Below are positions 16,450 to 59,421 of a stretch of DNA of 64,000 nt, piece after piece (within the stretch, counting starts at the first letter, position 1; the number at the start of each line of letters is the position of its first letter). The position numbers were made by a program, and so were the translations under genes. The notes beneath the pieces are model-generated. The model saw nothing but the letters and a program-made list of their open reading frames with translations. It made no database searches and had not been told where the DNA came from. This DNA is from an uncultured Eubacteriales bacterium (GTDB lineage Bacteria > Bacillota > Clostridia > Lachnospirales > Lachnospiraceae), in assembly GCA_900319795.1 (NCBI GenBank), contig ONPU01000009.1:1-64000 (forward strand), written 5' to 3'.

Positions 16450-17838
16450 TTACTTATCCCATGCGTGCTTTCCGGCTTCCAGGTCTTCGCGGATCTCGGA
16501 AACTCTCTTATCGGAAAGCTTGTACCAGATCAGCGGGATGCAGCTTACGAGCGCGAGGATCGCGGGCAGCATGTTGACCATGAAGTTGATACCCATCTTT
16601 GTGGACGCAGTCTGTTCCATATTCGGAACATAGCCGACAGCTTCAAGAAGAAGGACAACCGGTGCGCAGATCGCCGTAGCAAGCTTGACGCCGAAGCTCA
16701 GCATGGATGCTGCAAGACCTTCCTGACGTTTTCCGAGTTTCCAGTCGCCGTATTCCAGAGAATCGCCGACCATGCCGTAGCAGATTGCCGGAGCGCCGAA
16801 GCCAAGGGAGCCGATGAAAGAAGCGCCAATCAGGAATACCGGGTTGTTGGTCGGATTGAGGAACAGAGCCACGAATCCGGCTGCCATCACGACGTTCATG
16901 ATGATCATGTAGTTCTTCTTGCCGAACATCTTTGTTCCCCACGGAACTGTCAGTGTACCGACCAGCTGGCCGACTGTCATGGCTGTGAACATGGTTGCGA
17001 TGTACTGCGGTCCGCCGACGACGTAGATGACATGGTAAACCAGAATTCCGTAGCGGCCCGTTACGCAGATCGTACCGATAACGGTTGCGATGACGACGAT
17101 GAGCAGCTGATCGTTCTGGATGAGGCCCTTCATGTTTTCAATGAATCCGGCCTTCTCTGCCGGAGCATTGCTGTGAAGTTTGTCCGTATAAGTTTCCTTG
17201 CAGATCGTTGCGCAGGTCCAGAAAACCGGGATCAGGATCAGGGAGAAGATCACTGTCGCGACAAAGTAGCCGTGGCCGTCCGCCATCTTTTCGCCGGCTT
17301 CATTGGTAGCGGAGCTGAAGCGAAGAATGAGCGGCATAGCGACCATCGAAAGGATGATGCCGATGATGGAAGCGCCGGTGCTGCGGGCAGTTGCCAGAAG
17401 CTGACGGATGCGGGAATCGACCGCGATAACATTGAGAAGTGCCTGATAAGCAATGGAGCAGGCTGTATAAGCCATACCGGCTCCGATGTAGCAGACGCCG
17501 CAGAGAATGACTTTCGCCATGCCCTGTACCGGGAATACCGTAAAGGTCAGGATATTGAACAGAGCGAGGAACGGCGGTGCGAAATAAAGATAGGGACGGA
17601 ATTTGCCCCAGCGGGAATTTGTGCGGTCCGCGATCTGGCCCATCATCGGGTCATTGATTGCGTCCCAGATACGTGCGATCAGAACGATCGCTGAAATTGC
17701 GGCACCTGACAGACCTACTACGTCCGTGTAGAAAATGTTCAGGTAGTTGTTGATCATGTACCAGCTCATCTGGCACGCGACTTCTCCGAGACCGTATCCG
17801 ACTAACAGCTTCGGACTGGCTTTTTCATTGGATGCCAT
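16450..17838 (-). CDS. GPH (MelB-type) glycoside transporter
   Basis: The 462-residue membrane symporter has about twelve hydrophobic segments and the family loop ADRTNSRWGKFRPYL, preceded by WDAINDPMMGQI. It is the third gene of an operon that starts with C-glycoside deglycosidase alpha and beta subunit genes (19226 to 17898), 59 bases after the beta gene. This makes a C-glycoside or its freed sugar the likely cargo. It is closely similar along its length to the transporter at 36423-37820 (shared NYLNIFYTDVV/NYLMLFYTDVV and NILTFTVFPVQG blocks), so the two are recent paralogues. Substrate assignment is inferred from context. Confidence 0.87.
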   Translation of the reverse strand: MASNEKASPKLLVGYGLGEVACQMSWYMINNYLNIFYTDVVGLSGAAISAIVLIARIWDAINDPMMGQIADRTNSRWGKFRPYLYFAPPFLALFNILTFTVFPVQGMAKVILCGVCYIGAGMAYTACSIAYQALLNVIAVDSRIRQLLATARSTGASIIGIILSMVAMPLILRFSSATNEAGEKMADGHGYFVATVIFSLILIPVFWTCATICKETYTDKLHSNAPAEKAGFIENMKGLIQNDQLLIVVIATVIGTICVTGRYGILVYHVIYVVGGPQYIATMFTAMTVGQLVGTLTVPWGTKMFGKKNYMIIMNVVMAAGFVALFLNPTNNPVFLIGASFIGSLGFGAPAICYGMVGDSLEYGDWKLGKRQEGLAASMLSFGVKLATAICAPVVLLLEAVGYVPNMEQTASTKMGINFMVNMLPAILALVSCIPLIWYKLSDKRVSEIREDLEAGKHAWDK

Positions 17839-17897
17839 TTACTAAACCCTCCTTAAAAATGATTCCGGGACATTTCCCCGTATGCTTAAAATGATAA

Positions 17898-18341
17898 TCA
17901 GACGATCAGCATTCTCCGCTCATTGACATGGTGGCCGAACTCCGGCATGAATACGAAACTCTCCTCATCCGGATCCAGATGATCCTGAATGGCCGGCGGC
18001 ATATAGGAAGAAGTAAAGCAGAAGCCGTACTTCAGATCGTGATATCCCTGCGCAAGACCGCCCGGTTTCTCAACCTTGAGCACAGCCGGGCACGTAACTG
18101 CCCAGTGGGTCTGGAAATCAACTGCCATCTCTTCATTCGTGAAGTCTTCGCCTTTGATATTCCATGTGATTTTGTCCTTCTCAATTTTCTCGCCGTCGAT
18201 ATAGAGCGTACCCGGGCGAAGCTGGGAAAGGAACACGCCTCTGTAATAAGGAAGCCGGACCTTGAACTGAAAACCTGTGATATTGCCGTTTTCGTCCTTA
18301 ATGTTTCTGAATCCTACAGACTGGATAACCTGTTTTTCCAT
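17898..18341 (-). CDS. C-glycoside deglycosidase beta subunit (DUF6379 type)
   Basis: The 147-residue beta-sandwich protein belongs to the small partner family of C-glycoside deglycosidases. Its signature GFQFKVRLPYYRGVFLS and the later KPGGLAQGYH recur in the beta gene at 53938 and in the N-terminus of the fusion at 51338 (pattern G-F-x-F-x6-Y-R-G-x2-L-S and K-x-G-G-[LI]-A-x-G-x-H). In characterised systems this subunit assembles with a metal-dependent TIM-barrel alpha subunit and shapes the active site. The GGAGG site and ATG lie 12 bases after the alpha gene stop, consistent with a 1:1 complex. There is no signal peptide. Family membership rests on recognised sequence pattern and pairing. 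Confidence 0.85.
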   Translation of the reverse strand: MEKQVIQSVGFRNIKDENGNITGFQFKVRLPYYRGVFLSQLRPGTLYIDGEKIEKDKITWNIKGEDFTNEEMAVDFQTHWAVTCPAVLKVEKPGGLAQGYHDLKYGFCFTSSYMPPAIQDHLDPDEESFVFMPEFGHHVNERRMLIV

Positions 18342-18353
18342 TTGCGCACCTCC

Positions 18354-19226
18354 TTAGTCACCAAGCAGATTCTTCAGCATGATGTGATGCTTTCTGAGTG
18401 TCTGCCCTACTTCGTATCCGTCGTCGTACTTGTCGGCACCTTCGTATTCGCTCAGCAGATAGCCGTCGTATCCGTTCTCCTGCATCACCTTGATGATTTC
18501 CGGATACGGGATGGTCGTCTCATGGAAATCGTCGCTCATGTTGATGAACTTGGCATGGCAGCAATAGATATACGGCAGCAGCGGGATCAGGTCCTCCGGT
18601 ACGTTCGGCGTATATTCGGGGCTTACGTACTCGCCTTCCGAAAAGCCTGTGCGGAATACCGAGAAGTCAATGTTGAGGCCGAAATTCTTTGTGCCCGTCT
18701 TCTTAATGAAATCGACAAAATCCGTCACAAGCTTGCCCTTCAGATTGGACGGCGTATGGATCTCGGGGCACATCTTAATGCCGAGTTCCTCAGCCAGCGG
18801 AAGCGCGCCTTCGATAATCTCTCTCCAGTTGAGAACCGGCTCCAGTTTGTCGTTAATGACCGGCATCTTGGTTCTCATAACCGTAAATCCGAGACGGTGC
18901 GCAAGGCGGATATCTCTTTTCAGCATCTCGACGGATTCTTCCGTCGTGAGATCCCTGTCTCCGAGGACATGAGAATCGATCCAGTTGCCGTACTCTACCG
19001 GAATGATCTCGTACTTGTCGCAGAGTCTCCACCACTTTTCGACCCATTCATCCGTCGGATAAGGATAATTTTCAATATGGGTATTAGCCAGGATTTCGAT
19101 TCCGTGAGCCCCCATATCATAGATGTCTTCGAAGCAGTCTTCCAGTGTCTTTGTCAGCCCGAATTCAGCGGAATAGCTGTAAAGTGCAATACCGCGCTTC
19201 GGACCTTTCCTGTCGTACTTGTACAT
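18354..19226 (-). CDS. C-glycoside deglycosidase alpha subunit (xylose-isomerase-like TIM barrel)
   Basis: The 290-residue TIM barrel of the sugar phosphate isomerase/epimerase superfamily has candidate metal ligands Glu155 (CPEIHTP), Asp187 (NIDFSVF), His224 (CCHAKF) and Glu260 (LLSEYEG). The E-x-H, D-F, H-x-K-F and E-[YF]-E series is repeated in the other two deglycosidases of the window. In studied enzymes this subunit, with a divalent metal and the beta partner, eliminates the aglycone from a 3-keto C-glycoside. An AAAGGAG site precedes the ATG. It heads the alpha, beta, GPH operon. A plain sugar isomerase is the alternative, but the adjacent beta gene argues against it. Confidence 0.83.
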
Positions 19227-19687
19227 GTCCGTCCACTCCTTTCTGAACCGCTGTTATCGTGTACGTTTTTACGTTACTTCTCTATGGTAGTGATTCTACC
19301 GGAAATGAAGACCTTTTGCTTTCTCAGCTTCCCGATCTCTCCGCTTTTGCGCTCAAACAGAAGAACTAACTGAAAGTATATGCGTTCATGCATCCGCTTT
19401 CTTTCAAACTGAGGACTTCTTTTTGCTCTCATTGGAACCATCTTTATTCGCCGGACGTCCGAAAGTTTCCATGCGCAACGAATAAAGGTCATTTCTTGCA
19501 TATTAATAGTCAAAAACCGTATCTTCTGCGCAAAAGTCAATAAAATGCAAAAAATGAGACATCTGAAGAAAAGGCATCTTCTTCCCGTTCCTGTATACTG
19601 ATATTCATAATCCGGGAACAGCTCGGTATGCGTTTTATGATCAGAGTTTTTCCCTTTCAAGACACATTTTACGAAGGAGACGCGGCG
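19227..19687. promoter_or_regulatory. Divergent control region between deglycosidase operon and GH106-like gene
   Basis: This 461-base region holds no convincing gene. It contains TTTATTCG at 19443-19450 and CGAATAAA at 19479-19486 as an inverted repeat that encloses the perfect palindrome CGGACGTCCG (19452-19461). AAAGGTCATTT overlaps its right arm at 19484. A TATACT hexamer at 19594-19599 could be a -10 for the plus-strand gene, but no good -35 accompanies it. The size and palindromes suggest regulated divergent promoters. Which regulator binds is unknown. Confidence 0.45.
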
Positions 19688-22288
19688 ATGAAAGAAAACC
19701 ATATTCTCCCGTTCCTGTGGATGCGCGGAGAATCAGAAGACATCCTGAGAACCGAACTTAAAAAGATCCGGGAAGCCGGCATCCGATCGGTATGCCTTGA
19801 AGCGAGGCCTCACCCGGATTACGCGGGCGAAGGATGGTGGCACGACGTCGACATTGTGATTGACGAGGCCAAAAAGCACGATATGCAGATCTGGATTCTG
19901 GACGACGCCCATTTCCCGACCGGTATGGCGAACGGCAGCATGCCTGCCCATCCCGAAAAGGCCAGAAGATTTCTCTATACCAACTTTGTGGATGCGACCG
20001 GACCGCTGCCCGCGGCTCAGTTTGACGTGGATACGCTGCTGACAAAGCAGGTGACCTGGATGGACCTGGGAAAACCAGTCTCCACACCGCTCTTCGATGA
20101 GACGAAGCTCCTGTCCGTTACGGCCTCCCGTATCTCAGACGGCGATACGGTCGAAGGAGAAATCCTTGACCTCACTTCCTCCGTCAGCGACGGTTACCTT
20201 ACATGGGATGTCCCGGAAGGGGTCTGGAGAATCAACGTCAATTTCTCGACGACCGCGATCGGCCCGAAGCCGGATTATATCAACTATATCGACGAAGACT
20301 CCGTCCGTGTTCTCATTGACGAAGTCTATGAAAAGCACTATGCCCGGTATAAGGATCTGTTTGGAACGATCATCCAGGGATTCTTCTCCGACGAGCCCGG
20401 CTTCTACAACAGAGATACCTATGACGAGTTTTCCGACCTCGGACGCTTCGATACCCTGCCGTGGGGCTCTGAAATGAACATCCTTCTTCACAATATCTAC
20501 GAAGGCGATCTGTACAGGGATCTGCCTCTCCTCTTCGCCAATGAGAAGAACGGCGCGCACCGCGCCGTCCGCTACGCGTATATGGACGCTGTCAGCCACC
20601 TCTACAGCAAGAACTTCAGCTGCCAGCTTGGCGAATGGTGCCGCGCGCACGGTGTCCGTTACATCGGCCACATCGTAGAGGACAATTATGCCTATAAACG
20701 GCTCGGAGCAGGTGTCGGACATTACTTCCGCGCCATGGCCGGCCAGGATATCGCGGGCATCGACAATATCGGATACCAGCTGATGCCCGGCAATGACGTG
20801 GCCATCCGTCACACGGGAGCCCAGGATATCTCCCCGGAATTCTATCATTACGGAATCGGCAGACTCGGCGCGTCCGCTGCCGCCATCGATCCTTTGAAAA
20901 AGGGCCGTCTGATGTGCGAGAATTTCGGCGCCTACGGCTGGCGCCTCGGCGTTCGCGACATGAAATGGCTGGCGGACTACCTGATCGCGCAGGGCGTCAA
21001 CTATTTCGTTCCGCACGCGTTTTCCATGGCCGAATATCCGGATTCCGACTGCCCGCCCCATTTCCATGCGCGCGGAAACAACCCCGAGTATCCGTATTTC
21101 TGCGACCTGATGCGCTATACGGACCGTCTCTCAAATCTGTTTTCGGATGGTCAGAGCGTTCCCGGAGCCGCTGTGCTCTTTGAAGCGGAAGCGGACTGGA
21201 CCGGAAAGGCCATGCACGGATGCACGGTCGGAAAGGAACTGATCACACACCAGGTCGATTTCTTCTTTATCCCGGCGGATGTATTTGCGGATCCCGATTA
21301 TTACGGCTGTGAAGTATCCGACGGCAAACTGATCGTGAACGGATACTCCATGAACGCGTTTGTCGTTCCGGAATGCGAATTCATTCCGGCAAAAGCCGCT
21401 TCGTTCATCGCGGATCATCCGGATCTGCCGGTCTTCTACGTCAATCATTTCCCGGAGGGAATTGCAGGACCCTGTGAAAATGCGGAAGAGCTTCTTAAAA
21501 ACGCGCTCAGAAACCGGACCTGCGTTCCGCTTCCGGAACTCGGCGACGTTCTGAGAGGGGAAGGCTGCGCGGACGAACTCTTCACCGAAAGAAGCGTCCC
21601 TTGTCTCCGCCAGTATCACTACAGAAAAGACGGAAGAGATTTCTGGATGCTGATGAATACTTCCCTGAGCCTCAATGTCGAGGAAACGTTCCATCTGCCC
21701 AAAGCCGCGTCCTTCGGAATTTATGACGCGATGAAGGATCAGACGACGGCGCTTTCCGTATCGGACGGCACGGCATCTCTTCGGATCGCGCCCTATGAGT
21801 CCCTGATTCTTGTAACGAATCCGGAACATGCGAAACCGGCCGAACCGAAGTATCAGTTATGCGGGCAGCTGTCCCTTCAGACTTTCGATCTGACATTGGT
21901 TCCGATCGGATCCGGAGAGGAAGAAGTCATAAAAGGTTTCGATCCGAAGCCGGTCTCTTCCATAAGAAGAGATTTCTCCGGCACCATAATCTACCGGACG
22001 AAATTCCTTATATCCGAACTCCCGAAGAAGGCGGTTCTCAACGCGGAATATGTATTTGAATGCATGAGTGTGGAACTCAACGGCAAAACGCTTCCGAACG
22101 TCATTGCGCCGCCTTACACGGCCGACCTGACAGAGGCGCTTAAAGAAGGCGCGAATGAGCTCTGTATCCGTGTCGCCACCACTCCGCTTCGGGACGCGAA
22201 CACAAAGCCCGGAATCTTCGGAAAGGAAAGAACCGTTATTGAGCCGACCGGCATGTTCGGACAGATCCGGATTGACCTGTTCCTCTGA
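19688..22288 (+). CDS. Glycoside hydrolase, GH106 alpha-L-rhamnosidase-like
   Basis: The 866-residue protein opens with a barrel segment (LPFLWMRGE, then LEARPHPDYAGEGWW and WILDDAHFPTGMANG) typical of the large GH106-related hydrolase group. A C-terminal galactose-binding-like domain (about 770-866, around VELNGKTLPN) follows. Acidic candidates include GFFSDEPGFYN and HIVEDN, but no catalytic pair is assigned. The start is the ATG at 19688, eight bases after GAAGGAG. The upstream ATG at 19628 has no site. It lacks a signal peptide. Rhamnosyl or other deoxysugar removal from plant glycosides fits the setting, but the substrate is inferred. It is first in a plus-strand block of hydrolase and flavoprotein genes. 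Confidence 0.72.
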   Translation: MKENHILPFLWMRGESEDILRTELKKIREAGIRSVCLEARPHPDYAGEGWWHDVDIVIDEAKKHDMQIWILDDAHFPTGMANGSMPAHPEKARRFLYTNFVDATGPLPAAQFDVDTLLTKQVTWMDLGKPVSTPLFDETKLLSVTASRISDGDTVEGEILDLTSSVSDGYLTWDVPEGVWRINVNFSTTAIGPKPDYINYIDEDSVRVLIDEVYEKHYARYKDLFGTIIQGFFSDEPGFYNRDTYDEFSDLGRFDTLPWGSEMNILLHNIYEGDLYRDLPLLFANEKNGAHRAVRYAYMDAVSHLYSKNFSCQLGEWCRAHGVRYIGHIVEDNYAYKRLGAGVGHYFRAMAGQDIAGIDNIGYQLMPGNDVAIRHTGAQDISPEFYHYGIGRLGASAAAIDPLKKGRLMCENFGAYGWRLGVRDMKWLADYLIAQGVNYFVPHAFSMAEYPDSDCPPHFHARGNNPEYPYFCDLMRYTDRLSNLFSDGQSVPGAAVLFEAEADWTGKAMHGCTVGKELITHQVDFFFIPADVFADPDYYGCEVSDGKLIVNGYSMNAFVVPECEFIPAKAASFIADHPDLPVFYVNHFPEGIAGPCENAEELLKNALRNRTCVPLPELGDVLRGEGCADELFTERSVPCLRQYHYRKDGRDFWMLMNTSLSLNVEETFHLPKAASFGIYDAMKDQTTALSVSDGTASLRIAPYESLILVTNPEHAKPAEPKYQLCGQLSLQTFDLTLVPIGSGEEEVIKGFDPKPVSSIRRDFSGTIIYRTKFLISELPKKAVLNAEYVFECMSVELNGKTLPNVIAPPYTADLTEALKEGANELCIRVATTPLRDANTKPGIFGKERTVIEPTGMFGQIRIDLFL

Positions 22289-22383: not shown

Positions 22384-23337
22384 ATGGCAAAAGTTGTAGC
22401 ATTTTCATTCGGAAGAAAGATGTCCAACACAGAAGTGATGCTGAAGGAAGTCCTGAAAAAATGTCAGGAAGCGGGACATGAAATTCAGTTCATCCGTCCG
22501 GACGATCTCGACATCAAGCCCTGCACCGGCTGCTGCGGCTGCGTTGTCGGCATCCTTACCGGCCGCACAAACGGGACATGTATCCATAAAGACGATTTCC
22601 ACATTGTGGAAGAGGCTTATTATTCCGCGGACGCCATCATCGTCGGCTCTCCGGTTTACGAGACTTCTCCGAGCGGCACATTTAAGACCTTCTGCGACCG
22701 CCTTGGCCCGTCCCACGATATCGCGTTCCTGACCGAAGCGAAAAAAGACCGTCTGGCTTCCGGCGACCCGAACGTCCTCCTTCCGGACGAGATCGTATTC
22801 AAACCGCGTGTAGGCGCTCTTGTGGGCGTAGGCGGAGCCAGAACCGAAAACTGGACCATCTTTACCGTTCCGATCATGTATGAAAGCATGATGTCCGCCG
22901 GCGTCGACGTCATCGACACCCATACCTATTTCGGCGCCATGAACGTCCAGCACGTCCTCGGCGTTCCGGAACAGATGGAACGTATGGATAAAATGGCGCA
23001 GAACATCATCGACGCTCTTGCCGCCGAAACCGAAGAAGAACGCACAAAGTGGAGAGGAGAAACCGACGGCGCATGCCCGGTCTGCCACCAGAGCATGTTC
23101 CGCGTACACGAAGGCTCCGACCTTGTGGAATGCGCGATCTGCGGCATCAACGGAACCGTCGGCCTTGTGGACGGAAAGATCACATATAAGTTCTCGAAGG
23201 AAGAACAGATGAGAAGCCGTCTGAAATATGCCGGCAAGCTGGAACACAGAAATGAGATCGCCGACGGCGCGATGACCCAGAAGAAGGTCGAAAACCTCGC
23301 GGAACTCAAGAAGCCGTACCTGCACATCGGGGAATAA
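22384..23337 (+). CDS. Iron-sulfur flavoprotein of the NADPH-dependent FMN reductase type, with zinc ribbon
   Basis: The 317-residue protein has a flavodoxin-like FMN fold (residues 1-210; VGSPVYETSPSGTFKTFCDR is the flavin loop). The Cys47, Cys50, Cys53 plus Cys66 set fits a [4Fe-4S] cluster as in Isf proteins. It also has a C-terminal CX2C...CX2C pair (Cys231, 234, 250, 253) that resembles a zinc ribbon. It should move electrons between pyridine nucleotide or ferredoxin and an organic acceptor. Two paralogues with the same extra module lie at 27759 and 46568. AAAGGAGG precedes the ATG. The nitroreductase gene follows 48 bases later. The acceptor is unknown. A keto-sugar, quinone or polyphenol is suggested only by neighbours. 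Confidence 0.82.
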   Translation: MAKVVAFSFGRKMSNTEVMLKEVLKKCQEAGHEIQFIRPDDLDIKPCTGCCGCVVGILTGRTNGTCIHKDDFHIVEEAYYSADAIIVGSPVYETSPSGTFKTFCDRLGPSHDIAFLTEAKKDRLASGDPNVLLPDEIVFKPRVGALVGVGGARTENWTIFTVPIMYESMMSAGVDVIDTHTYFGAMNVQHVLGVPEQMERMDKMAQNIIDALAAETEEERTKWRGETDGACPVCHQSMFRVHEGSDLVECAICGINGTVGLVDGKITYKFSKEEQMRSRLKYAGKLEHRNEIADGAMTQKKVENLAELKKPYLHIGE

Positions 23338-25632: not shown

Positions 25633-25645
25633 AAAGGAGAAAGCC

Positions 25646-26725
25646 TTGACCAGGAAGCGCAAACTGAAAATAGGCGTAATCGGCTGCGGCGCGATCGCGC
25701 AAAGACGCCATCTTCCGGAATATGCCGCTCATGAAGACGTGGAAATATGCGCGCTTTACAACCGTACCAGAGTAAGGGCCGAGGAGGCGCAGAAGCAATT
25801 CGGAGGCGTCATCTGCGACAGCGTGGAAGAGCTCGTCGCCATGGATCTGGACGCCGTGAGCGTTTGTACCGCCAACGCCAGGCATGCCCATGACAGCATC
25901 CGGGCACTTCGGGCCGGGAAACACGTGCTCTGTGAAAAGCCCATGGATGTCTCGATTGAGAAATGCATCGCCATGACGGAAGAGGCAAAAAAGGCCGGAA
26001 AACTCCTGATGATCGCTCAAAATCAGCGCTTCTCTTCCGCCCACGCGGGAGCCCGCAAGCTTATTGCGGAAGGCGCGATCGGGAGAATTCTGTCTTTCGA
26101 AACCAAGTTCGGCCACCCCGGACCGGAACGCTGGACCGGTACCGACGCCACCTGGTTTTTCCGGAAAAATGAAGCCGGCATGGGCGCCCTCGCGGATCTC
26201 GGCATTCACAAAACCGACCTGATCCATTACCTGACGGGCGAAGCCATCACACAGGTCTACGCCGTGACATCGACACTGGATAAACGCTATCCGGACGGAT
26301 CGCTCATCGACGTCGAAGACAACGCATGGTGCATTTACCGGATGGACAGCGGCACTACAGGCACCATGCACGTCAGCTGGACGGATTACGGCCAGGAGTA
26401 CAACTCCATCGTCGTTCACGGCACCGAAGGCACGATCCGCTGCTACGACGACCGGGAATACAGCCTGATTCTCGAAACGAAGGACGGCCGCACCAACTTC
26501 CTTTCCACGGAAGGCATGCTGACCAATGCCGACCAGACGGTCGGAACCGGCAAGAATCAGAACTCGGGCGTCATCGACGAATTTGTCGACTGCGTCCTCA
26601 CGGGCAGGGAGTGCCGCTGCCCGGCCGAAGAGGCGCTGAAGGCCATGAGGGTTATATTTGCCGCCACCGCTTCCGCGGAAATCGGCAGCATCATCACCAT
26701 AGCGGAAAACCGGAAACTCAGATAA
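25646..26725 (+). CDS. Gfo/Idh/MocA-family oxidoreductase, candidate glycoside 3-dehydrogenase
   Basis: The 359-residue NAD(P)-dependent enzyme has a Rossmann motif GVIGCGAIAQ, a CEKP motif with Lys98 and a conserved DLGIHKTDL segment with His188. The start is assigned to the TTG at 25646, six bases after AAAAGGAG. The in-frame ATG at 25619 lies inside the GH43 end and has no site. In known C-glycoside pathways a member of this family oxidises the sugar C3 hydroxyl to the 3-keto form that the alpha-beta deglycosidase cleaves. It is the only such gene in the window, so it is the natural candidate. Other sugar or inositol substrates remain possible. A REP element follows the stop. Confidence 0.82.
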   Translation: MTRKRKLKIGVIGCGAIAQRRHLPEYAAHEDVEICALYNRTRVRAEEAQKQFGGVICDSVEELVAMDLDAVSVCTANARHAHDSIRALRAGKHVLCEKPMDVSIEKCIAMTEEAKKAGKLLMIAQNQRFSSAHAGARKLIAEGAIGRILSFETKFGHPGPERWTGTDATWFFRKNEAGMGALADLGIHKTDLIHYLTGEAITQVYAVTSTLDKRYPDGSLIDVEDNAWCIYRMDSGTTGTMHVSWTDYGQEYNSIVVHGTEGTIRCYDDREYSLILETKDGRTNFLSTEGMLTNADQTVGTGKNQNSGVIDEFVDCVLTGRECRCPAEEALKAMRVIFAATASAEIGSIITIAENRKLR

Positions 26726-27688: not shown

Positions 27689-27758
27689 TTTCCCTCGAAT
27701 ATATGCAATTCCATCAGTAACCGTGAATAATCCATATGACTACGGAAAGGAGCACCAC

Positions 27759-49070: not shown

Positions 49071-49090
49071 GGCCTGTTCCTCTTTTTTTG

Positions 49091-51337: not shown

Positions 51338-52789
51338 TTACTCCAGAACTTTTCGCTCGAGTGAAAGCATCTTCCGCGTAAAGTCATATCCTCCGCAGAA
51401 CAGTTCGTCTTCGTATTCGCAGATCAGCCATCCGTCAAATCCCTCTTCTTTTACGATCGGAAGGATCTTTTCATACGGAATGCTCGGTTCGAGACCGTCT
51501 TCTCCGAGATAGTGGAACTTGCAGTGAATCTCGAAGGTATAGGGCAGAATATAGCGCAGTTCATCAAGGAGGCGCGGCAGCTCATCCGGATTGGTGAACT
51601 GGACAAAACCGTACATGCCGGCCACAGCGGTCATAATGGCCGGATGTGCGCCGAGCTCTCCAAGCTTCTCCATCGTCTCTTCCTGAGATTTTCCCGCCGC
51701 GCGCATTTGAGCCGCGATCTCAAGATGCTCCTCTTTCACTCCCGCTTTAATAGCTTTCAGCCATTGCGGCTTATTGGGATGGATCGCAAGGAACCCGAAG
51801 TCCGTTACAAAGCCGAGGTATTTTGATCCGAGGCGGTCAATCACCTTCACATACTCCTGAATGGCAGCCGTCTTCGGCGTCTCCGGATTGTGAATCTCGA
51901 TGCCGCACTTGACATCGAAAAGCTTTGCGTAAGGCTCCAGCTTCTCAAAGGCCGTCGCGGGCATCATGTACTGGACACGCATCGTATGGCAGCCGAGTTT
52001 ATTGGCCGTCTTCAGATCGATGATCGCGTCCGCCACCATCTCGTCATCCGTGAGGTTTCTGTCCGGGCGCATGCCCTTGTCCTGATTCGCGCCGTAGCCG
52101 ACGGGGCCGATCCCGTATTTTGCCTTCAAAGATGCCACCAGGCCGAGGAATTCATCCGAAACATTCGGGTATTCCGGAATCATCTGGCTGCCGACGATCT
52201 CATATCCTTTCGCTCCGGCCAGATACGCTTCGCGTACACAGTCCTCAAAATCATACTTGTACTGCGCGTATTCCGTTGTGTAGCAAAACAGCGTCGCGCC
52301 AAGCTTTGCTCCTTTTACTTCCGGGGCGTACGATGCGGGGATTTCCCTTGCTTCCTCTTCGGGAAGCGTGACCTTCACTTTTTCTCCGGCATCCAGAGGC
52401 ATATATGTATGCCCCGGTCCGATCTGCATATAGGGAATCCTGAGCATCAGCTTCAGCTCCAGCTCGTGTTCTCCCGGAGCAATGCCGCCCTCTTTTATCA
52501 CGCGGATCTTTGCGGGCTCCACCTGACTCCAGAATTCCGTCGTCGCCCATTTGATGCGGTAGACCGGCATCTCCTTGCCTTTCAGTTCGAACGTCATATC
52601 CGTCTCCGGTATCTGTTCGCCGTCCAACCATACCTCGAATACCTCTATGCAGGACAGATAATGCCCGCGGTAATACGCCAGTTGAATGTCAAATTCGAAC
52701 CCGTTCTTTCTGCCGTTAATGTAATAGCTTTTGAATGTACTTTTTTTAATAATCTCGTCATTCAGTTTAAAACGCATAGCAAATGCCAT
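51338..52789 (-). CDS. Single-chain C-glycoside deglycosidase: beta domain fused to alpha TIM barrel
   Basis: Residues 1-150 match the beta subunit family (GFEFDIQLAYYRGHYLS at 30-46 and KEGGIAPGEH at 99-108). Residues 160-483 form the alpha-type TIM barrel with candidate metal ligands Glu298 (GIEIHNPE), Asp330 (VTDFGF), His422 (EIHCKF) and Glu458 (ICEYED). AAGGAGG lies seven bases before the ATG and the frame is continuous, so this is one protein. The 483 residues equal a beta plus an alpha subunit. It follows the separate beta and alpha genes by 84 bases, so the operon encodes two deglycosidases, perhaps for different aglycones or steps. Family assignment is by shared motifs. Confidence 0.82.
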   Translation of the reverse strand: MAFAMRFKLNDEIIKKSTFKSYYINGRKNGFEFDIQLAYYRGHYLSCIEVFEVWLDGEQIPETDMTFELKGKEMPVYRIKWATTEFWSQVEPAKIRVIKEGGIAPGEHELELKLMLRIPYMQIGPGHTYMPLDAGEKVKVTLPEEEAREIPASYAPEVKGAKLGATLFCYTTEYAQYKYDFEDCVREAYLAGAKGYEIVGSQMIPEYPNVSDEFLGLVASLKAKYGIGPVGYGANQDKGMRPDRNLTDDEMVADAIIDLKTANKLGCHTMRVQYMMPATAFEKLEPYAKLFDVKCGIEIHNPETPKTAAIQEYVKVIDRLGSKYLGFVTDFGFLAIHPNKPQWLKAIKAGVKEEHLEIAAQMRAAGKSQEETMEKLGELGAHPAIMTAVAGMYGFVQFTNPDELPRLLDELRYILPYTFEIHCKFHYLGEDGLEPSIPYEKILPIVKEEGFDGWLICEYEDELFCGGYDFTRKMLSLERKVLE

Positions 52790-52873: not shown

Positions 52874-53938
52874 TCAGTCGGCTTCTCCGCAAAGTCTCTT
52901 CAGCATCTCGTGATGACGTCTGACCTGTTCCACTTCATCCACAAGATACTCTACACCGCGATCCTGCTGGTCTCTCTGGCCTTCGAATTCGGAATCGATA
53001 TAGCCGTCGAAACCGCCTTCCAGCAGATATTTGATCGGCGTCGCGTAGTCAATGCACTTATCCTCGTACTGTCCCGGCTTGCCCGGAATCTCGGTCATGT
53101 TGTAGAACTTGCCGTGAATACTGATGATGTACGGAATGATATCCTTGATGTCTTCAGGCTGGCAGCAGGGTTTATGCAGCGCGAGGCGGTCGATGCTGTT
53201 CACCGGAATGCCGTGTCCCGGGAACTTCTCGTCCACGACATCGATCAATTCGTCGTGCTTGTATTCCGGAGCGTGCTCGAGGATGAAATCGACCGCGTCC
53301 TGGTTATGGCAGTGTCTGCGGATATACTCGATCGACACTTCAGACGGAGCAAACTGGAAAATACCGAAATCCGGAACGAGGCCGACATACGGGCTGCCGG
53401 TTCTTAGGCGAAGCTCCAGCATCTCGTCCACGGCATTGAAGTTAATTCCGGCCGCCATGCCTTTGGTCGCCTTATCGTGTACAGTGCCCGGCTTGATCGG
53501 CCACGGCGCATGAATCTCCTTGCCGATGCGGACGTCATATTTTTCCGCTTCCGGAATGCACATCTCGATGACTTCAATCGGAACGAGAACGAGGCAGCGG
53601 ACATTTTTAAAGCCCATCTTCGCGGCCAGGCGGATATCATTTTTCAGATGTTCCGCTGCTTCGCGATAATTCATGACATGATCCCGGAACTGGTGAACAT
53701 CCAGATAGACATCCATCGTCACGGCGTTCATATTGTAACGGGCGAGGTAATTTCTCCAATCATAGATAAACTGCTCCGACGGGAACGGATAGTCCCGGAT
53801 CAGCTGCTGGTTGATAATCTCGATTCCGTCTGTTCCGAGTCCTTCGCGAACTTCGCGGACCTGGGCTTTCCAGTCCATCTTTCCGAAGAACTGGGCCTGC
53901 TGATAGCTGTATAAGGATACACCTCTCTTAATTGCCAT
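52874..53938 (-). CDS. C-glycoside deglycosidase alpha subunit, second set
   Basis: The 354-residue TIM barrel has the same ligand series as the other two sets: Glu141 (GKEIHAPW), Asp190 (LVPDFGIF), His275 (SIHGKFYNM) and Glu317 (IDSEFEG). It is about 60 residues longer than the alpha subunit at 18354. Part of the excess is an insert after the DFG segment (about 200-265) that could alter substrate access. Its ATG overlaps the beta stop by one base, a sign of translational coupling and a stoichiometric complex. No signal peptide. It needs a 3-keto substrate if the known mechanism applies, and no oxidoreductase gene is in this operon. Confidence 0.83.
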   Translation of the reverse strand: MAIKRGVSLYSYQQAQFFGKMDWKAQVREVREGLGTDGIEIINQQLIRDYPFPSEQFIYDWRNYLARYNMNAVTMDVYLDVHQFRDHVMNYREAAEHLKNDIRLAAKMGFKNVRCLVLVPIEVIEMCIPEAEKYDVRIGKEIHAPWPIKPGTVHDKATKGMAAGINFNAVDEMLELRLRTGSPYVGLVPDFGIFQFAPSEVSIEYIRRHCHNQDAVDFILEHAPEYKHDELIDVVDEKFPGHGIPVNSIDRLALHKPCCQPEDIKDIIPYIISIHGKFYNMTEIPGKPGQYEDKCIDYATPIKYLLEGGFDGYIDSEFEGQRDQQDRGVEYLVDEVEQVRRHHEMLKRLCGEAD

Positions 53939-54414
53939 TACGCGTTGCCTCCTTCCTGAAGTTCGAGATCAAATTCGCTGACCGTCTCCGTCTTGCCGCC
54001 GCCTTCCGCGCTTCCCGGCTTCGGTACGGGCGGGTTCTTTACCCACTCTTCATCCCATGGCATATAGCCGTACTGGGCCAGAATGCTCTGCAGAATTCCG
54101 ATCTTATGCCTTCCGGGAGCAAGGCCTCCCTCTTTTTTCACATGGACGATGCCCGCGTCGTCATAGTTCCAGTGTTCCCAGACACAGGTCTTCAGTTCTT
54201 CATAAGTACGCGGCGCTTTCCCGTTGATCTCGAAGGTTTGAAGTTCACGGCCGTATTCCGTTCCGTCCACGTTGATGTAATAGCCGTTTACCAGAGACAG
54301 GAAGCACCCGCGGTAATCCGCTATACGCACCGCGAACTGGAATCCGATCGCTTTCCCGTCCGCGTCATAATCATTCCTCAGACTGTCCGGTTTGATGAGA
54401 AACGCATCAAACAT
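53938..54414 (-). CDS. C-glycoside deglycosidase beta subunit, second set
   Basis: The 158-residue protein shares the GFQFAVRIADYRGCFLS and KKEGGLAPGRH signatures with the beta gene at 17898 and the fused N-terminus. It ends with a Pro- and Gly-rich tail (about 126-158) absent from the other two. AAGGAGG lies nine bases before the ATG. Its stop overlaps the alpha start. It begins the catalytic part of the operon, 79 bases after the YesL gene, with an AT-rich gap that could hold a secondary promoter. Confidence 0.85.
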   Translation of the reverse strand: MFDAFLIKPDSLRNDYDADGKAIGFQFAVRIADYRGCFLSLVNGYYINVDGTEYGRELQTFEINGKAPRTYEELKTCVWEHWNYDDAGIVHVKKEGGLAPGRHKIGILQSILAQYGYMPWDEEWVKNPPVPKPGSAEGGGKTETVSEFDLELQEGGNA

Positions 54415-54493: not shown

Positions 54494-55189
54494 TCAATGA
54501 CTGCCATTGTCTTCGCCCGTCTGCTCTTCCTGATCGTAGTCGTTCTTCCACTCCATATTCCGCTCATCCTCTTCCCTGCGCTGTTCCGGTGTCATATTTC
54601 TCCGAAATGCGCGTTCGATGAGTTCACTCGAAAGCCACATGGCGACTCCCGGCATAAGGAGCACCAGCGGTGGCATCAGCCAGATCACGAACGCGGCCCC
54701 CGCGAAAGCCAGAAGGATCAGAATATCAAAAGGAAGATTGCCGGCTGTCAGGTACAGGGCATTTTTCATCATACGACCCGTCGTATTCTCAAACCGGGCC
54801 ACGCACGCGAAAACCCAGATCGCATAGAGCCCGATCAGGATCAGTACGGCACGGATCAGAATTTCCAGACCTCCGACGGCTTTGCCGGCAGCCACAAGTG
54901 TTCTCACTGCCCCGATGTTCAATACGAGCACGATGATCATGGCAAGCAAAATCAGCCAGATCTTAGTCGCCTGACTGAAGTTTCTTTTAAAGCTTTCCCA
55001 AAATGAAGACACTGTATAACCGCGGCTGTATTTCAGGTTTTTCTGAATCGTATAGTAAAATGCCGCTGTGGACGCCCCCGCCGTAAATACGGGTACTGAG
55101 AACAGAAGCCACAAAAATGTAACGACGATCAGCGACCCGAGCTTCATAACGCCCGACATCAGGGGACTGTCAAAACTGAATAATTTCAT
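54494..55189 (-). CDS. YesL/DUF624 membrane protein
   Basis: The 231-residue protein has about five hydrophobic helices and the typical start FSFDSPLMSGVMKLGSLIVVTFLW, GASTAAFYYTIQK and a charged C-terminal tail. The start is the ATG at 55189, where family homology begins, not the GTG at 55228. The nearest GGAG is farther away than usual, and a hairpin at 55216-55255 lies just upstream, so translation may be weak or regulated. YesL-type genes commonly accompany sugar ABC importer genes, as here, but the molecular role is not established. It lies between the second permease gene and the deglycosidase genes. Confidence 0.8.
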   Translation of the reverse strand: MKLFSFDSPLMSGVMKLGSLIVVTFLWLLFSVPVFTAGASTAAFYYTIQKNLKYSRGYTVSSFWESFKRNFSQATKIWLILLAMIIVLVLNIGAVRTLVAAGKAVGGLEILIRAVLILIGLYAIWVFACVARFENTTGRMMKNALYLTAGNLPFDILILLAFAGAAFVIWLMPPLVLLMPGVAMWLSSELIERAFRRNMTPEQRREEDERNMEWKNDYDQEEQTGEDNGSH

Positions 55190-55215
55190 CCGATGAATAC
55201 GTCTCCAAATAAACA

Positions 55216-55255
55216 ACAGAAGCCACAAAGGGCATCCTCCCCTTGTGACTTCTGT
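55216..55255 (-). promoter_or_regulatory. Intra-operon hairpin between permease and YesL genes
   Basis: ACAGAAG-C-CACAA pairs with TTGTG-A-CTTCTGT, with an inner GGG/CCC step. On the minus strand it is followed by TGTTTATTT, a weak T-tract. It could attenuate transcription into the YesL and deglycosidase genes. Confidence 0.6.
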
Positions 55256-55267: not shown

Positions 55268-56179
55268 TTATTCCTTCACGCCGCCAAGAGCGATACCTGC
55301 AATAAAGGCCTTCTGGAAGAAGGGGTACAATACCATGATCGGGATGACGCCGATCACAGCCATCGCCATACGGATGGAGGAACCCGGCATCTTCGCGGAC
55401 TGCGCCGCGGCTTCCGCCGATGCGGAGGCAAGTGATGCCAGCGTACTGATGTTATCAATGATGCTCTTCAAATACTGCTGCAGAGCATAGAGTTTCATAT
55501 CCGTGATATAGTACAGACCGTTGGTCCAGTCGTTCCAGTAGCCGAGACCTACCATGAGGCCGATCGTCGCCAGAATCGGAAGGGACAGCGGGAGCACGAT
55601 CTTGAAGTAGATATAGAGCTCGCCGGCGCCGTCAATCTTCGCAGCCTCCACAAGGGCCGGATGGATGTTCGACGCAAAGTTGTTCTTGTACAAAATGATA
55701 TAGAAACCGTTAAAGAGCAGCGTCGGAATCAGCAGTGCCAGAATACTGTTCTTCATATGGAAGAGCTGCGTATACATGATGTAGCTCGGCACAATACCGC
55801 CGTTGAACAGCATCGTGAAGAATACCAGGAAGGTCAGAAGTCTGCCTCTCTTATAGTCTGCGCGGCTCATAACCCATCCGAGCATCGGGCCGATCAGAAG
55901 TGAAACCGTTGTGCCCACGATCGTGATAAAGAATGTAATTCCGTACGACCTCAACACCTGCTTGCCGTTGGATTTGAAGAGGTACTCATACGCATAGGCA
56001 GAGAACTTTCTCGGCCAGAAGTTGTACCCCTCACGGAGCAGTGTACTCTCTTCCGTAAGCGATGAGGAAACAAGAAGGATAAAAGGTACAATCGCGCAGA
56101 ATGCGAAAATCGCCAGAATAATAATGATAATTGCCTGATAAGTACGGTCAGCCGGGGATTTTACACTAGAATCTTCCAT
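55268..56179 (-). CDS. Carbohydrate ABC importer permease, LplC/MalG-like
   Basis: The 303-residue inner membrane permease has six hydrophobic helices and the EAA loop EAAKIDGAGELYIYFKIVLPL that contacts the ATPase. The ATG at 56179 is preferred, because AGGAGG lies eight bases upstream. The ATG two codons earlier at 56185 is only two bases from that site. It follows the larger permease gene by 21 bases. As in other systems of this class, no ATPase gene is present, so a shared MsmK-type ATPase elsewhere is expected. Together with the lipoprotein at 57652 it should import an oligosaccharide or glycoside for the deglycosidases. Confidence 0.88.
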   Translation of the reverse strand: MEDSSVKSPADRTYQAIIIIILAIFAFCAIVPFILLVSSSLTEESTLLREGYNFWPRKFSAYAYEYLFKSNGKQVLRSYGITFFITIVGTTVSLLIGPMLGWVMSRADYKRGRLLTFLVFFTMLFNGGIVPSYIMYTQLFHMKNSILALLIPTLLFNGFYIILYKNNFASNIHPALVEAAKIDGAGELYIYFKIVLPLSLPILATIGLMVGLGYWNDWTNGLYYITDMKLYALQQYLKSIIDNISTLASLASASAEAAAQSAKMPGSSIRMAMAVIGVIPIMVLYPFFQKAFIAGIALGGVKE

Positions 56180-56200
56180 ATTCATGTCCTCCTTTCCTTC

Positions 56201-57571
56201 TTAGAATAATGCGTTCTGCTCATCGACCCTGCGGACGATGGAGTTGACAACCATGACCAGGATAAATCCGACGATCGCCTGATAGGTCGATGCAGCGGAA
56301 GACACGCCGATGTTGTTCATGGTCATGAGGAAACGGTACACATAGGTATCAATCGTATCCGTCACGGATCTCAGTGCGCCGGAATCCAGCGGGACCTGAT
56401 AGAAAAGACCGAAGTCCGAATACATGATACGGCCGACCTGAAGCATAAACAGAGTCATGATTGTGGGCTTTAAAAGCGGCAGCGTGATGAACTTGATTTT
56501 CTGCCATCTGGTTGCGCCGTCGATCGAAGCCGCTTCATAGATGCTCTTGTCGATGCCGACGATCGAAGACAGGAAGATAATTCCGTTGTAACCGGCCATC
56601 TTCCAGATGTTGATAAAGATCAGCACGAACGGCCAGTACTTCGGTTCACTGTAGAAGTTGATGTTTGTTCCGAGTACGTGGTTGACAAGACCCGCGTCAT
56701 TGGAGAAGAACGCATAGACGATGTAGGCCACAATAACGTAACTGATCAGCTGCGGCAGCAGAATGCTCGTCTGGAAGAACTTCTGCAGAATGCTGCTCAT
56801 GATGTCCGAAAGGCAGATGCCCACGACCACGCCGACGATGATGCCGAGCACGATGAACGCAATATTGTAGAGCAATGTGTTCTTCGTAATCTTGAAAGCA
56901 TCCGATGCCAGAATTCCTCCCGATGCCGAAACGAACAGGGGTTTGAAATTGTTAAGGCCGTTCCACGGGCTCTTGAAGATACCGACGCTGTAGTCGATCT
57001 TCTTGAACGCAATCATAATACCAGCCATCGGAATATAGTTGTTGATGAAGAAGTAAAGCATGCCGGGCACTGCCATGAAATCCAGTGCGGAGAGAACTTT
57101 CATCTTCCACAGCGCCCACAGAGTCCAGATCAGAACCAGGAATCCGCATATAAGAGCGATAATGCTGCCCACGGAAACCGTGATGTTCTTGCCTTTCGAA
57201 ATCTGTCCGGAGATAGAAGACGCAAAGAACATATTGCAGGCAAGCGAAACAATTGAAGCTGCGGCTGCAATCAGCATGCCCTTATCCGCTGAAAAAACAC
57301 TGCACAGAACACCTGCCAGAATGATTGCGACCGCAGCCACAAGCATCAGGATTACCGGTACGCTCGGCGTCAGAACAACTTTTCCTCCACAGATCGTTTT
57401 ACCGCTGATCAGCGACATACCTGACAGCGTATATCGTGCTTTTTTATAGGTATATCCCACAAACGGAAGGAAAGTCATGACCCCCATGACAAGGCCTGCC
57501 AGAATCAGTTCGATTCTAAGCGACTTTTCTCCTGCTTCAGGAATACGCATTAGAGAAGACTTTTTGTCCAC
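56201..57571 (-). CDS. Carbohydrate ABC importer permease, LplB-like, with extra N-terminal membrane domain
   Basis: The C-terminal 290 residues are a normal permease with the EAA loop EAASIDGATRWQKIKFITLPL. Before them, residues 1-165 add four to five extra hydrophobic helices that are not part of the usual fold (standard length is about 300). The start is the GTG at 57571, eight bases after AAGGGAGG. An ATG at 57643 would begin inside a strong hairpin region and lacks a site. The role of the added domain is unknown. It could aid assembly, lipoprotein docking or sensing. It is the second gene of the importer operon, after the lipoprotein. Confidence 0.85.
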   Translation of the reverse strand: MDKKSSLMRIPEAGEKSLRIELILAGLVMGVMTFLPFVGYTYKKARYTLSGMSLISGKTICGGKVVLTPSVPVILMLVAAVAIILAGVLCSVFSADKGMLIAAAASIVSLACNMFFASSISGQISKGKNITVSVGSIIALICGFLVLIWTLWALWKMKVLSALDFMAVPGMLYFFINNYIPMAGIMIAFKKIDYSVGIFKSPWNGLNNFKPLFVSASGGILASDAFKITKNTLLYNIAFIVLGIIVGVVVGICLSDIMSSILQKFFQTSILLPQLISYVIVAYIVYAFFSNDAGLVNHVLGTNINFYSEPKYWPFVLIFINIWKMAGYNGIIFLSSIVGIDKSIYEAASIDGATRWQKIKFITLPLLKPTIMTLFMLQVGRIMYSDFGLFYQVPLDSGALRSVTDTIDTYVYRFLMTMNNIGVSSAASTYQAIVGFILVMVVNSIVRRVDEQNALF

Positions 57572-57604
57572 TTCAGATACCTCCCTTGCCGGATTTGAAT
57601 CAGT

Positions 57605-57628
57605 AAGGAGCGCGCGGGCGCGCCCCTT
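57605..57628 (-). promoter_or_regulatory. GC-rich hairpin between lipoprotein and permease genes
   Basis: AAGGAGCGCG pairs with CGCGCCCCTT (one mismatch) around a four-base loop, 24 bases after the lipoprotein stop. No T-tract follows. Hairpins at this place protect the 3' end of binding-protein mRNA and reduce permease output in other ABC operons. Confidence 0.65.
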
Positions 57629-57651
57629 CTGTACTTTAATCATTCCGTAAT

Positions 57652-59421
57652 TTACTTAGATGCAAGCCATTCATCCAGCTGTGCCTGATAGGTATCAAGC
57701 AATGTCTGCATGCCGGCGCCGTACAGTTCGCTGACGAATTTCTCAAGCTGAGCATCCGTATCGGAAACCGTACCTGCGCTGAGCGGCGGATAATAAGTAT
57801 CGACAACGTTCTTGACCGCCGCTACCGTATCAGCCACATCCGTTGCGTCTACAGCAAAGCCGAAGTACTTGGAAACTTCCAGTTCCGCATTCGCGGCCTT
57901 CTGGCGTTCACGAAGAGTTTCCGCATCATCAGAATCCCACGGAATCGTTTCCAGACGGTTGCCATAGAGGAAGTCTGCCGTATGATAAGCGTTTTGTTCA
58001 TTCATGCCTTCTGCGTAAGTTGCGGTACCCTTGTCTGTTCTGACCCAGTCAACGCCTTCCACACCCCAGGCGATGGTATCTCTGTATTCCGGATCATCCC
58101 AGATGAGGTTCAGAAGGGCTACTGCGCGGTCCTGGTCAACCGTTGTGACCGGTACACACATACCGAACTTGGTGAAGGAAGCCGTATTGACCTTGCACGG
58201 AGTGATGTCAACCTGGATATCCGGGAATCCTGTCTGAGACTCAACAAGCGCCTGGTTGCCCATCTCGACCGCGTGCATCATGCCCATACCGACCTGGTTC
58301 TTGATCAGAGTCGAGCCATAGTCCTGAGCCGTCTGTGCATCTTTGTAGATGAGGCCGGCATCATACCAGTCTTTGACCATGCGGATGCCATCCTGCCATT
58401 TTTCATTTTCAAAATAGCACTTGACCTTATCGTCTGCCGGATCAATGTAGATATACTGATAGCTGTCACCGCCGCAGTCAAGCCATTCCGCATCGGCGAA
58501 GCTGCCGTTGCCTACAGCATAAGGCTGAGGAGTCAGAACCGTGCCCTGGTTGTCCATGTTGACGAATCCGTTGATATCCGGATTTGCTTCCACAGCCTTC
58601 GCGACCGCTTCCTTGACTTCATCAAAGCTGGTCGCATTCTTGATGGCATCCGCCACACCGGCTGCTTCCATGAGGTCGCCTCTGATATCAATCGAGCATG
58701 TTCCGGACATATCCTGCAGAACGCCGACGCCGTAGACACCGCCGTCTCTGGAAGTCGCTTCCAGATAGTCGGTATCCGCATCCGGTCTCATATACTTCAG
58801 GATGCCCTGGCCATATTCTTCGAGAGATTCAGAAATGTCGCAAAGCTGCTTCTGATTCATGAAGGACTGATAGCCGGCTGCCGGGATCGGTGTGAACATG
58901 ACGAGGTCAAGCTGTTCGCCGCCCTGAAGCATCATAGGAACCTGTGTGATATAGGAGCCGCCGTCGAACCAGGTATAGTCGACTGTCGCATTGATTTTTG
59001 CAAGAGAGATCTCATTGAGTTTTTCTTCGATATGGTCTGTAATATCCGACGGGATCGGGCCGAGGGCCATCAGCGCAACCTTCAGTTCCACCGGGTCATC
59101 GTCAAAATCGATGTCGCCGACCGGGGCTGATTCTTCTGCCGCTTCAGCTTCTTCTGCCGGAGCTTCTTCCGCTGCTTCCTCTTCAGCCGGTGCTTCTTCT
59201 TCAACAGCTTCTTCCGCCGGGGCTTCTTCTTCAGCCGCTGCTTCTTCTTCAACCGCTGCTTCTTCTTCAGCCGGAGCTTCCTCTTCAGCCGGAGCTTCCT
59301 CCTCAGCTGCCGCCTCCGTTGCCGCTTCTCCTGCCGGTGCGGCTTCCTCTGCACCGCAGCCTGCAAGGAGGGACATTCCCATTGCTGCAGTCAAAAGCAG
59401 TGCTACGATCTTTTTCTTCAT
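57652..59421 (-). CDS. Solute-binding lipoprotein of the C-glycoside-linked ABC importer
   Basis: The 589-residue protein has a signal with lipobox LLAGC, then a low-complexity acidic linker of about 80 residues (EEEAPAEEEA-type repeats), then a solute-binding domain with QVPMMLQGGEQLDLVMFTP and a DUF3502-like end. The start is the ATG at 59421, six bases after AAAGGAG. Earlier in-frame starts give no signal peptide. It is closely related to the lipoprotein at 38081. It heads an importer, YesL, deglycosidase and GH3 series, so a plant C- or O-glycoside is the likely ligand. The long linker could lift the domain through the cell wall. Confidence 0.9.
   Translation of the reverse strand: MKKKIVALLLTAAMGMSLLAGCGAEEAAPAGEAATEAAAEEEAPAEEEAPAEEEAAVEEEAAAEEEAPAEEAVEEEAPAEEEAAEEAPAEEAEAAEESAPVGDIDFDDDPVELKVALMALGPIPSDITDHIEEKLNEISLAKINATVDYTWFDGGSYITQVPMMLQGGEQLDLVMFTPIPAAGYQSFMNQKQLCDISESLEEYGQGILKYMRPDADTDYLEATSRDGGVYGVGVLQDMSGTCSIDIRGDLMEAAGVADAIKNATSFDEVKEAVAKAVEANPDINGFVNMDNQGTVLTPQPYAVGNGSFADAEWLDCGGDSYQYIYIDPADDKVKCYFENEKWQDGIRMVKDWYDAGLIYKDAQTAQDYGSTLIKNQVGMGMMHAVEMGNQALVESQTGFPDIQVDITPCKVNTASFTKFGMCVPVTTVDQDRAVALLNLIWDDPEYRDTIAWGVEGVDWVRTDKGTATYAEGMNEQNAYHTADFLYGNRLETIPWDSDDAETLRERQKAANAELEVSKYFGFAVDATDVADTVAAVKNVVDTYYPPLSAGTVSDTDAQLEKFVSELYGAGMQTLLDTYQAQLDEWLASK

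Follow-up and report, generated by a model that had tools for sequence, protein, structure and literature searches.

Three deglycosidase units in one stretch

C-glycosides, in which sugar and flavonoid are joined by a very stable carbon-carbon bond, belong to the plant compounds which are hardest to split, and bacteria capable of splitting them decide whether the aglycones become available. The stretch of DNA analyzed here (the window) comprises bases 1-64000 of contig C8 (GenBank ONPU01000009.1; 117,957 bases) of the assembly GCA_900319795.1 (2.0 Mb, 23 contigs), which derives from an uncultured Eubacteriales bacterium of the family Lachnospiraceae with relatives among gut bacteria. It carries two beta/alpha gene pairs, hereafter pair A and pair C, and one beta-alpha gene fusion, hereafter fusion B or unit B, which all resemble C-glycoside deglycosidases (CGDs). 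Two further units are treated below: D, on the same contig past the right end of the window, and E, on contig C5. The genes of the three window units are:

17898-18341, minus strand: pair A, CGD beta subunit (PF19906, 124.5 bits, E 2.3e-36)
18354-19226, minus strand: pair A, CGD alpha subunit, EuCGD/DfgA-like (PF01261; full-length match to 7BVS_A with 625 bits)
51338-52789, minus strand: unit B, CGD beta-alpha fusion of 483 amino acids (PF19906 in residues 10-120, 115.6 bits, E 1.3e-33; PF01261 in residues 187-461)
52874-53938, minus strand: pair C, CGD alpha subunit (PF01261; 153 bits to 8QVC_A)
53938-54414, minus strand: pair C, CGD beta subunit (PF19906, 117.9 bits, E 2.5e-34; its TAA stop and the ATG of the alpha gene share one base)

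The first-pass annotation, which was made from the letters alone, had proposed exactly these three units, and its coordinates proved right, with all three beta parts matching PF19906, the CGD beta subunit of the current Pfam (cut-off 27.6 bits). The same profile search yielded no match in any of 14 control genomes. All three alpha parts contain the AP_endonuc_2 TIM barrel (PF01261), and in a sequence search the best PDB match of each of them is a CGD chain. Alignment of the five alpha subunits of the genome to PuCGD, EuCGD and 9M3A revealed that all seven key positions (E141/H143, D173, H263/K265 and E299/E301 in PuCGD numbering) are kept in every one of them. At the sequence level this includes the metal ligands Glu, Asp, His, Lys and Glu as well as the catalytic His and its supporting Glu (H143 and E301). 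For relatives of the units the reaction, the metal and the roles of these residues have been shown (PMC8563793). The alpha series E-x-H, D, H-x-K, E-x-E, which had been picked out beforehand, thus coincides with the PuCGD key positions in all three window units, and the beta pattern G-F-x-F-x6-Y-R-G-x2-L-S is found in these three and in unit D, not in unit E. Neither a beta part without profile match nor a barrel without its ligands, the two outcomes named in advance as speaking against CGDs, was seen at the sequence level.

Within the same family, PF19906 occurs in 26 of 299 genomes, 25 of them above the cut-off. From these 25 genomes, own genome counted in, 62 distinct units were read, after genome G012 (E 9.8e-4, under the cut-off) and two duplicate partial frames had been left out. 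In all 62 the beta partner lies next to the alpha part or is fused with it. Family, residues, gene order and the predicted fold of the fusion are direct observations, and on their basis it appears highly probable (about 90%) that the three units are CGDs of the DgpBC/DfgAB family, acting on glycosides after 3-oxidation. The three alpha subunits are mutually only 25-36% identical and fall in three separate clades of a quick tree (63 genome rows and five solved chains; the row G110_C69_34389 is long-branched), which fits a specialization for several aglycones.

Likeness of the units to solved enzymes

Pair A is the unit closest to a characterized enzyme. Its alpha subunit is 88.6% identical to that of EuCGD (DfgA-DfgB of Eubacterium cellulosolvens; 7BVS, 7EXB, 7DRE), an enzyme acting on C6-glycosylated compounds (PMC8563793); the subunit keeps all seven key residues and shares with EuCGD the length of 290 amino acids and the absence of a lid insert. 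Unlike in the EuCGD system, a GPH carrier adjoins pair A, and dfgC, dfgD and dfgE were not identified in the window.

Unit B resembles in residues and fold both PuCGD (DgpB-DgpC of strain PUE; 7BVR, 7EXZ, 7XRF) and DgpB2/C2 of W974-1 (9M3A), scoring 381.5 bits to 9M3A_A, 161 bits to 9M3A_B and 284 bits to PuCGD, with its alpha part being 53.8% identical to 9M3A and 43.7% to PuCGD. While these solved relatives consist of two chains, unit B is a single polypeptide. Its AlphaFold2 model (mean pLDDT 91.1, pTM 0.90) has its best fold matches in 9M3A (TM 0.96 for alpha and 0.84-0.86 for beta, by target length) and 7BVR, and four helices at residues 340-393 of the model are taken by us for a PuCGD-type lid.

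The alpha subunit of pair C has its nearest solved relative by sequence in the CGD of Deinococcus aerius (8QVC, 153 bits), yet the two stand in different clades of the tree. Its best identity to PuCGD, EuCGD and 9M3A amounts to 33.3%, that of the alpha subunit of unit D to 30.9%, and both units are placed in clades without a close solved relative. With alphas only 29-33% identical to PuCGD and EuCGD, pair C and unit D could conceivably have drifted to another reaction on a sugar ketone (epimerase, isomerase or hydratase) within the same fold, and epimerases of the same superfamily do appear among the weaker fold matches of unit B. This appears improbable, as all seven key positions are kept, a beta subunit lies beside each alpha, and heterocomplexes of this kind are absent from other sugar isomerases (PMC8563793). 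The window offers three divergent enzymes from one organism, of which the single-chain unit B should be easy to express and assay.

Repeated fusion of beta and alpha

Only five of the 62 units are fused, and they stem from three genomes. Three have the order beta-alpha (unit B and two units of genome G110) and two the order alpha-beta (both in genome G067). The two alpha-beta fusions lie 3.6 kb apart on contig C6 of G067. In the quick tree unit B is nested among split pairs (SH-aLRT 99 for a clade of four rows), and its closest relatives there, up to 67% identical, are encoded by two genes each. One-clade tests, for which G015 and one short row were removed and the groups were named after the first tree had been seen, rejected a common origin of all five fused alphas (p-AU 1.5e-6), of the three beta-alpha fusions (p-AU 2.8e-4) and of the two G110 fusions (p-AU 0.0086). 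The simplest reading of the tree is that at least four independent fusions took place, in both domain orders.

Since the assembly is fragmented and the nearest relatives in the tree are two genes, fusion B might be suspected to be an assembly or sequencing artefact joining two neighboring genes. This is hardly credible. Unit B is one open frame with its linker in frame, its two-domain model is confident, and an intact homolog with 78% identity and one 484-amino-acid frame is present in a separate record (L138, the uncultured Lachnospiraceae metagenome-assembled genome RUG11217). Another fused relative, though with an interrupted frame (L139), was found in a scan of named genomes, which covered 78 CGD loci and counted as a relative any gene for which a query was the best one at ≥35% identity and ≥100 bits. 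On the strength of these two relatives and the AlphaFold2 model the artefact was rejected. A third frame with both domains, of 313 amino acids and with a partial alpha, is present in Microbacterium elymi (L215).

As a natural beta-alpha fusion has already been solved, namely the CGD of Microbacterium testaceum (8QRZ/8UN2), the fusion is not a new kind of enzyme. Like unit B this is a single chain of the same domain order; the two are 24% identical in the fold alignment, and their alphas belong to different clades.

Five units, four of them clustered

The count of three units stated by the first-pass annotation holds for the window, but the genome contains five: unit D is located at C8:67816-69285, starting 3.8 kb past the right end of the window, and unit E on contig C5, both with PF19906 scores above the cut-off. 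Four of the five lie within 51.4 kb of the 2.0-Mb assembly, for which the probability by chance is about 3e-4 under uniform placement, a question which was asked post hoc. By contrast, the 14 PF19906 matches of G067 are spread over nine contigs. Several CGDs per genome, as found here, are also known from the dgpBC sets of Catenibacillus, where by the criteria of the authors Catenibacillus scindens has four and C. decagia six DgpBC (PMC11170127). Set against the 14 matches of G067, which probably is C. scindens, the figure of four for this species looks low. As both multiple copies per genome and a natural fusion (8QRZ) have precedents, novelty at the enzyme level is low, and the units add to a family already described. 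What rises above routine is the density of the island, the recurrence of fusion in either domain order, the flavone-reductase linkage and the thiolase module described below. New here are the two further units of this genome, one of them 4 kb outside the window, the at least four origins of fusions suggested by the quick tree, the linkage to genes resembling flavone reductase and the thiolase series of unit D.

Beside unit E (C5:67520-70200, or L007:9521-12201) an open reading frame of 278 amino acids without Pfam match is flanked by two inverted arrays, each with ten to twelve tandem repeats of 53 bp, which lie inside outer inverted arms (91% over 189 bases). A layout resembling the surroundings of pair A and unit B was observed within 33 kb on contig C67 of genome G036 (L216, L217), where an EuCGD-like pair occurs together with relatives of the GPH carrier (61%), the GH3 protein (68%) and the AraC-GH39 protein, and with two flavone-reductase-like genes (60 and 65%).

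Candidate enzymes for 3-oxidation

No oxidase was found inside the gene runs of A, B and C. The Gfo/Idh/MocA gene at 25646 had been proposed to supply the oxidation:

25619-26725, plus strand: Gfo/Idh/MocA oxidoreductase, not a clear DgpA (profile and PDB-chain searches)

Compared with solved Gfo/Idh/MocA proteins, a comparison outside which DfgE stands, its product scores 118 bits to the aldose-aldose oxidoreductase 5A02 and 108 bits to DgpA. A tblastn search kept no match to it near EuCGD-like pairs (eight stretches of four other genomes), and relatives occur in only one of the 78 named CGD loci. The gene as an evident DgpA was therefore rejected, being nearer to aldose-aldose oxidoreductase and little linked to CGDs, though it may still be a 3-oxidase like DfgE, the partner oxidase of EuCGD.

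Four Gfo/Idh genes were found in the genome. One of them, C8:74388-75446, about 10 kb to the right of the window, reaches 430 bits and 53.2% identity to DgpA2 solved with isoorientin (9M37), with the next chain at 203 bits. Relatives of this oxidase are present in 33 of the 78 named loci, and those of the adjoining isomerase-like gene C8:75592-76512 likewise in 33. Because of the DgpA2 match and this linkage (33 versus one locus) C8:74388-75446 is preferred as the better candidate for the 3-oxidase. It may serve units A-C, and the isomerase-like protein is a candidate for the handling of the sugar product.

Neighboring genes and a proposed pathway

The genes around the CGD units, assigned by profile search unless stated otherwise, are:

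16450-17838, minus strand: GPH-family sugar:cation symporter, downstream of pair A (TIGR00792 349 bits, cut-off 231; MFS_2 308 bits)
22384-23337, plus strand: flavone-reductase-like FMN protein (FMN_red 62 bits; W149/H271/I275 of FLR kept)
27723-28709, plus strand: flavone-reductase-like FMN protein (FLR 95.7 bits, sole PDB match at E≤0.001)
39991-41178, minus strand: NuoF C-terminal/Fer4 protein, 3 bases from the next gene
41182-43377, minus strand: NuoG-like and GltD-like NAD(P)H oxidoreductase
43400-44854, minus strand: FAD_binding_2 reductase, nearest model vinyl phenol reductase VprA (318.6 bits, under its cut-off of 600)
46568-47563, minus strand: flavone-reductase-like FMN protein (FLR 126.9 bits, sole PDB match at E≤0.001)
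47889-49124, minus strand: carboxylesterase (COesterase 274 bits)
49091-51295, minus strand: GH3 glycosidase (PF00933, PF01915, PF14310)
54494-55228, minus strand: DUF624 membrane protein in the importer gene run
55268-56185, minus strand: ABC sugar permease
56201-57643, minus strand: ABC sugar permease
57652-59535, minus strand: ABC binding protein with DUF3502
59656-62058, minus strand: AraC-type regulator fused to a GH39 domain

The GPH carrier expected beside one pair is well supported by its TIGR00792 score, and the ABC importer and GH3 expected beside the fusion and the other pair are present as well, with the binding protein extending slightly past the previously given end at 59421. From 62058 down to 47889 the minus strand forms one run of AraC-GH39, ABC importer, pair C, fusion B, GH3 and carboxylesterase with gaps of -34 to 120 bases, and on the same strand past the carboxylesterase follow the flavone-reductase-like gene 46568-47563 and, further on, the VprA-like, NuoG and NuoF genes (39991-44854). 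The NuoF C-terminal/Fer4 protein possibly provides electrons. Three MFS_2 (GPH-type) carriers are encoded in the window (4340-6097, 16450-17838 and 36423-37820). A second AraC-GH39 fusion lies at L006:11917-14304, and relatives occur in 17 of the 78 named loci. A GH106 match of 19628-22288 was under its own cut-off and was not used.

FLR is a flavone reductase of gut bacteria (PMC7862272). Like FLR (7D38-7D3B), the three proteins of the window combine an FMN domain with a C-terminal part. With one query, four genes of this kind were found in the genome, each of them on C8; W149, H271 and I275 are kept in all four of their products, G106 in two and E91 in one. In seven loci of other genomes a CGD pair has a relative of the 22384 gene (50-58%) next to it, and flavone-reductase-like genes occur in 10 of the 78 named loci (union of three lists).

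Taken together, the neighboring genes probably serve the uptake of the compound and the breakdown of what remains of it. In the proposed pathway the GPH carrier or the ABC importer would take up a plant C-glycoside, whose sugar C3 hydroxyl would be oxidized by a Gfo/Idh/MocA dehydrogenase. The CGD would then bind a divalent metal through Glu, Asp, His, Lys and Glu of the alpha barrel, a His base would take the C2 proton, and the C1-aryl bond would be split by beta-elimination, with the beta domain shaping the aglycone pocket. Unit B would perform this deglycosylation as one polypeptide. The steps downstream of it are inferred: flavone-reductase-like and VprA-like enzymes may reduce the aglycone. 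The recurrent neighbors are accordingly candidates for the handling of the sugar product, for aglycone reduction and perhaps for an energy-yielding cleavage of the flavonoid skeleton.

Several points weigh against a C-glycoside pathway of this kind. Besides the missing oxidase in the gene runs, the assembly is only 82% complete, and the substrates of all units are putative. Identity of the flavone-reductase-like proteins to FLR is no more than 30-35%, and none of the four keeps M10, S14 or N15, which in FLR lie at the FMN phosphate. Superposition of the unit B model on the solved fusion 8QRZ gave 22.8 Å root-mean-square deviation over 491 columns, for which reason the beta and alpha parts of unit B may be placed differently or swapped between chains. 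Finally, PuCGD (CGE, strain PUE) cleaves 3-keto O-glucosides as well as 3-keto C-glucosides, and a generalist role was suggested by the authors of the CGE study (PMC10628242). The units might hence chiefly be O-glycoside eliminases, with C-glycoside cleavage as a side activity. The hydrolase genes in the vicinity (GH3, GH43 and GH39) suggest O-glycosides, and neither pair C nor unit D has a close characterized relative. Hydrolases, though, already cover O-glycosides here, and the alpha subunit of pair A is 88.6% identical to that of an enzyme characterized on C6-glycosides, so that a chiefly O-glycosidic role seems rather unlikely and the assignment of the units as C-glycoside deglycosidases is retained.

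A thiolase module behind unit D

Unit D heads a minus-strand series at C8:62289-69285, which forms one operon with it and the end of which reaches into the window:

C8:68893-69285, minus strand: unit D, CGD beta subunit (PF19906, above the cut-off)
C8:67816-68877, minus strand: unit D, CGD alpha subunit (7/7 key residues)
C8:66490-67815, minus strand: thiolase
C8:66056-66472, minus strand: DUF35 protein
C8:65724-65963, minus strand: acyl carrier protein (ACP), 79 amino acids
C8:64601-65710, minus strand: butyrate kinase-like protein (362 bits, above the butyrate kinase cut-off of 289)
63307-64000, continuing to C8:64533, minus strand: MFS carrier, leaving the window
62289-63362, minus strand: phosphotransacylase (Pta)-like protein, last of the series (TIGR00651 257.9 bits, under the cut-off of 311)

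There is no gap between alpha and thiolase, and thiolase and DUF35 are 17 bases apart. Another Pta, above the cut-off, is encoded at C8:92128-93933, and contig C11 carries a Pta-like gene together with a distant relative of the kinase, which we take for a housekeeping pair. A second ACP-thiolase-DUF35 set is located at C8:81958-84693 (L045:1959-4694), adjoined by a phosphopantetheinyl transferase-like gene.

The thiolase (E≤1e-60) is present in 10 of the 299 genomes. PF19906 occurs in eight of these ten and in 18 of the 289 others (one-sided Fisher 4e-8, which is not a clean probability as the genomes are kin). The core of thiolase (69-89% identity), DUF35, ACP and Pta-like gene is kept in seven other genomes, with the ACP found by search in six and, in the seventh, by inspection of the gap. 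The kinase is present in four of the seven. The ACP serine is, by eye, kept in all 12 sequences. In genome G154 the gene immediately before the thiolase is flavone-reductase-like. Such a thiolase set was found, as far as the fetched flanks reach, in three of the 78 named loci, one of which (L204) has the full thiolase-DUF35-ACP-Pta-kinase series before the CGD, while most clade-D CGDs of other genomes read have no thiolase within theirs. In the PDB the thiolase matches an acetyl-CoA acetyltransferase best (110 bits), ahead of benzoylsuccinyl-CoA thiolase (73 bits) and PhlC (58 bits).

The gene order at unit D and the like module before the CGD of L204 suggest, tentatively, a thioester-forming split of an acyl-phenol aglycone with gain of ATP; the module might also work in the making direction. 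After ene-reduction the thiolase-DUF35 enzyme would transfer to ACP or CoA the acyl half of an aglycone of the (dihydro)chalcone type, the Pta-like enzyme would convert the thioester to an acyl phosphate, and the butyrate kinase-like enzyme would use the latter to form ATP. Among the literature matches listed, no title or beginning of an abstract describes such a module together with flavonoid breakdown. If true, the module would provide a route other than that of phloretin hydrolase, by which none of this energy is saved. PF18089, the phloretin-hydrolase family, has no match in this 82%-complete genome, but is present in five of the ten thiolase genomes. The two are thus not exclusive, and an outright replacement of phloretin hydrolase by the module is left as the weaker reading.

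Further genes

Two GHKL kinase/LytTR regulator pairs (130-2158 and 11617-13687), with a radical SAM/SPASM protein (10088-11506) near, are also encoded in the window, and a nickel insertion protein (PF01969, 445 bits) lies further along contig C8 at 102308-103642 (L046:4309-5643).

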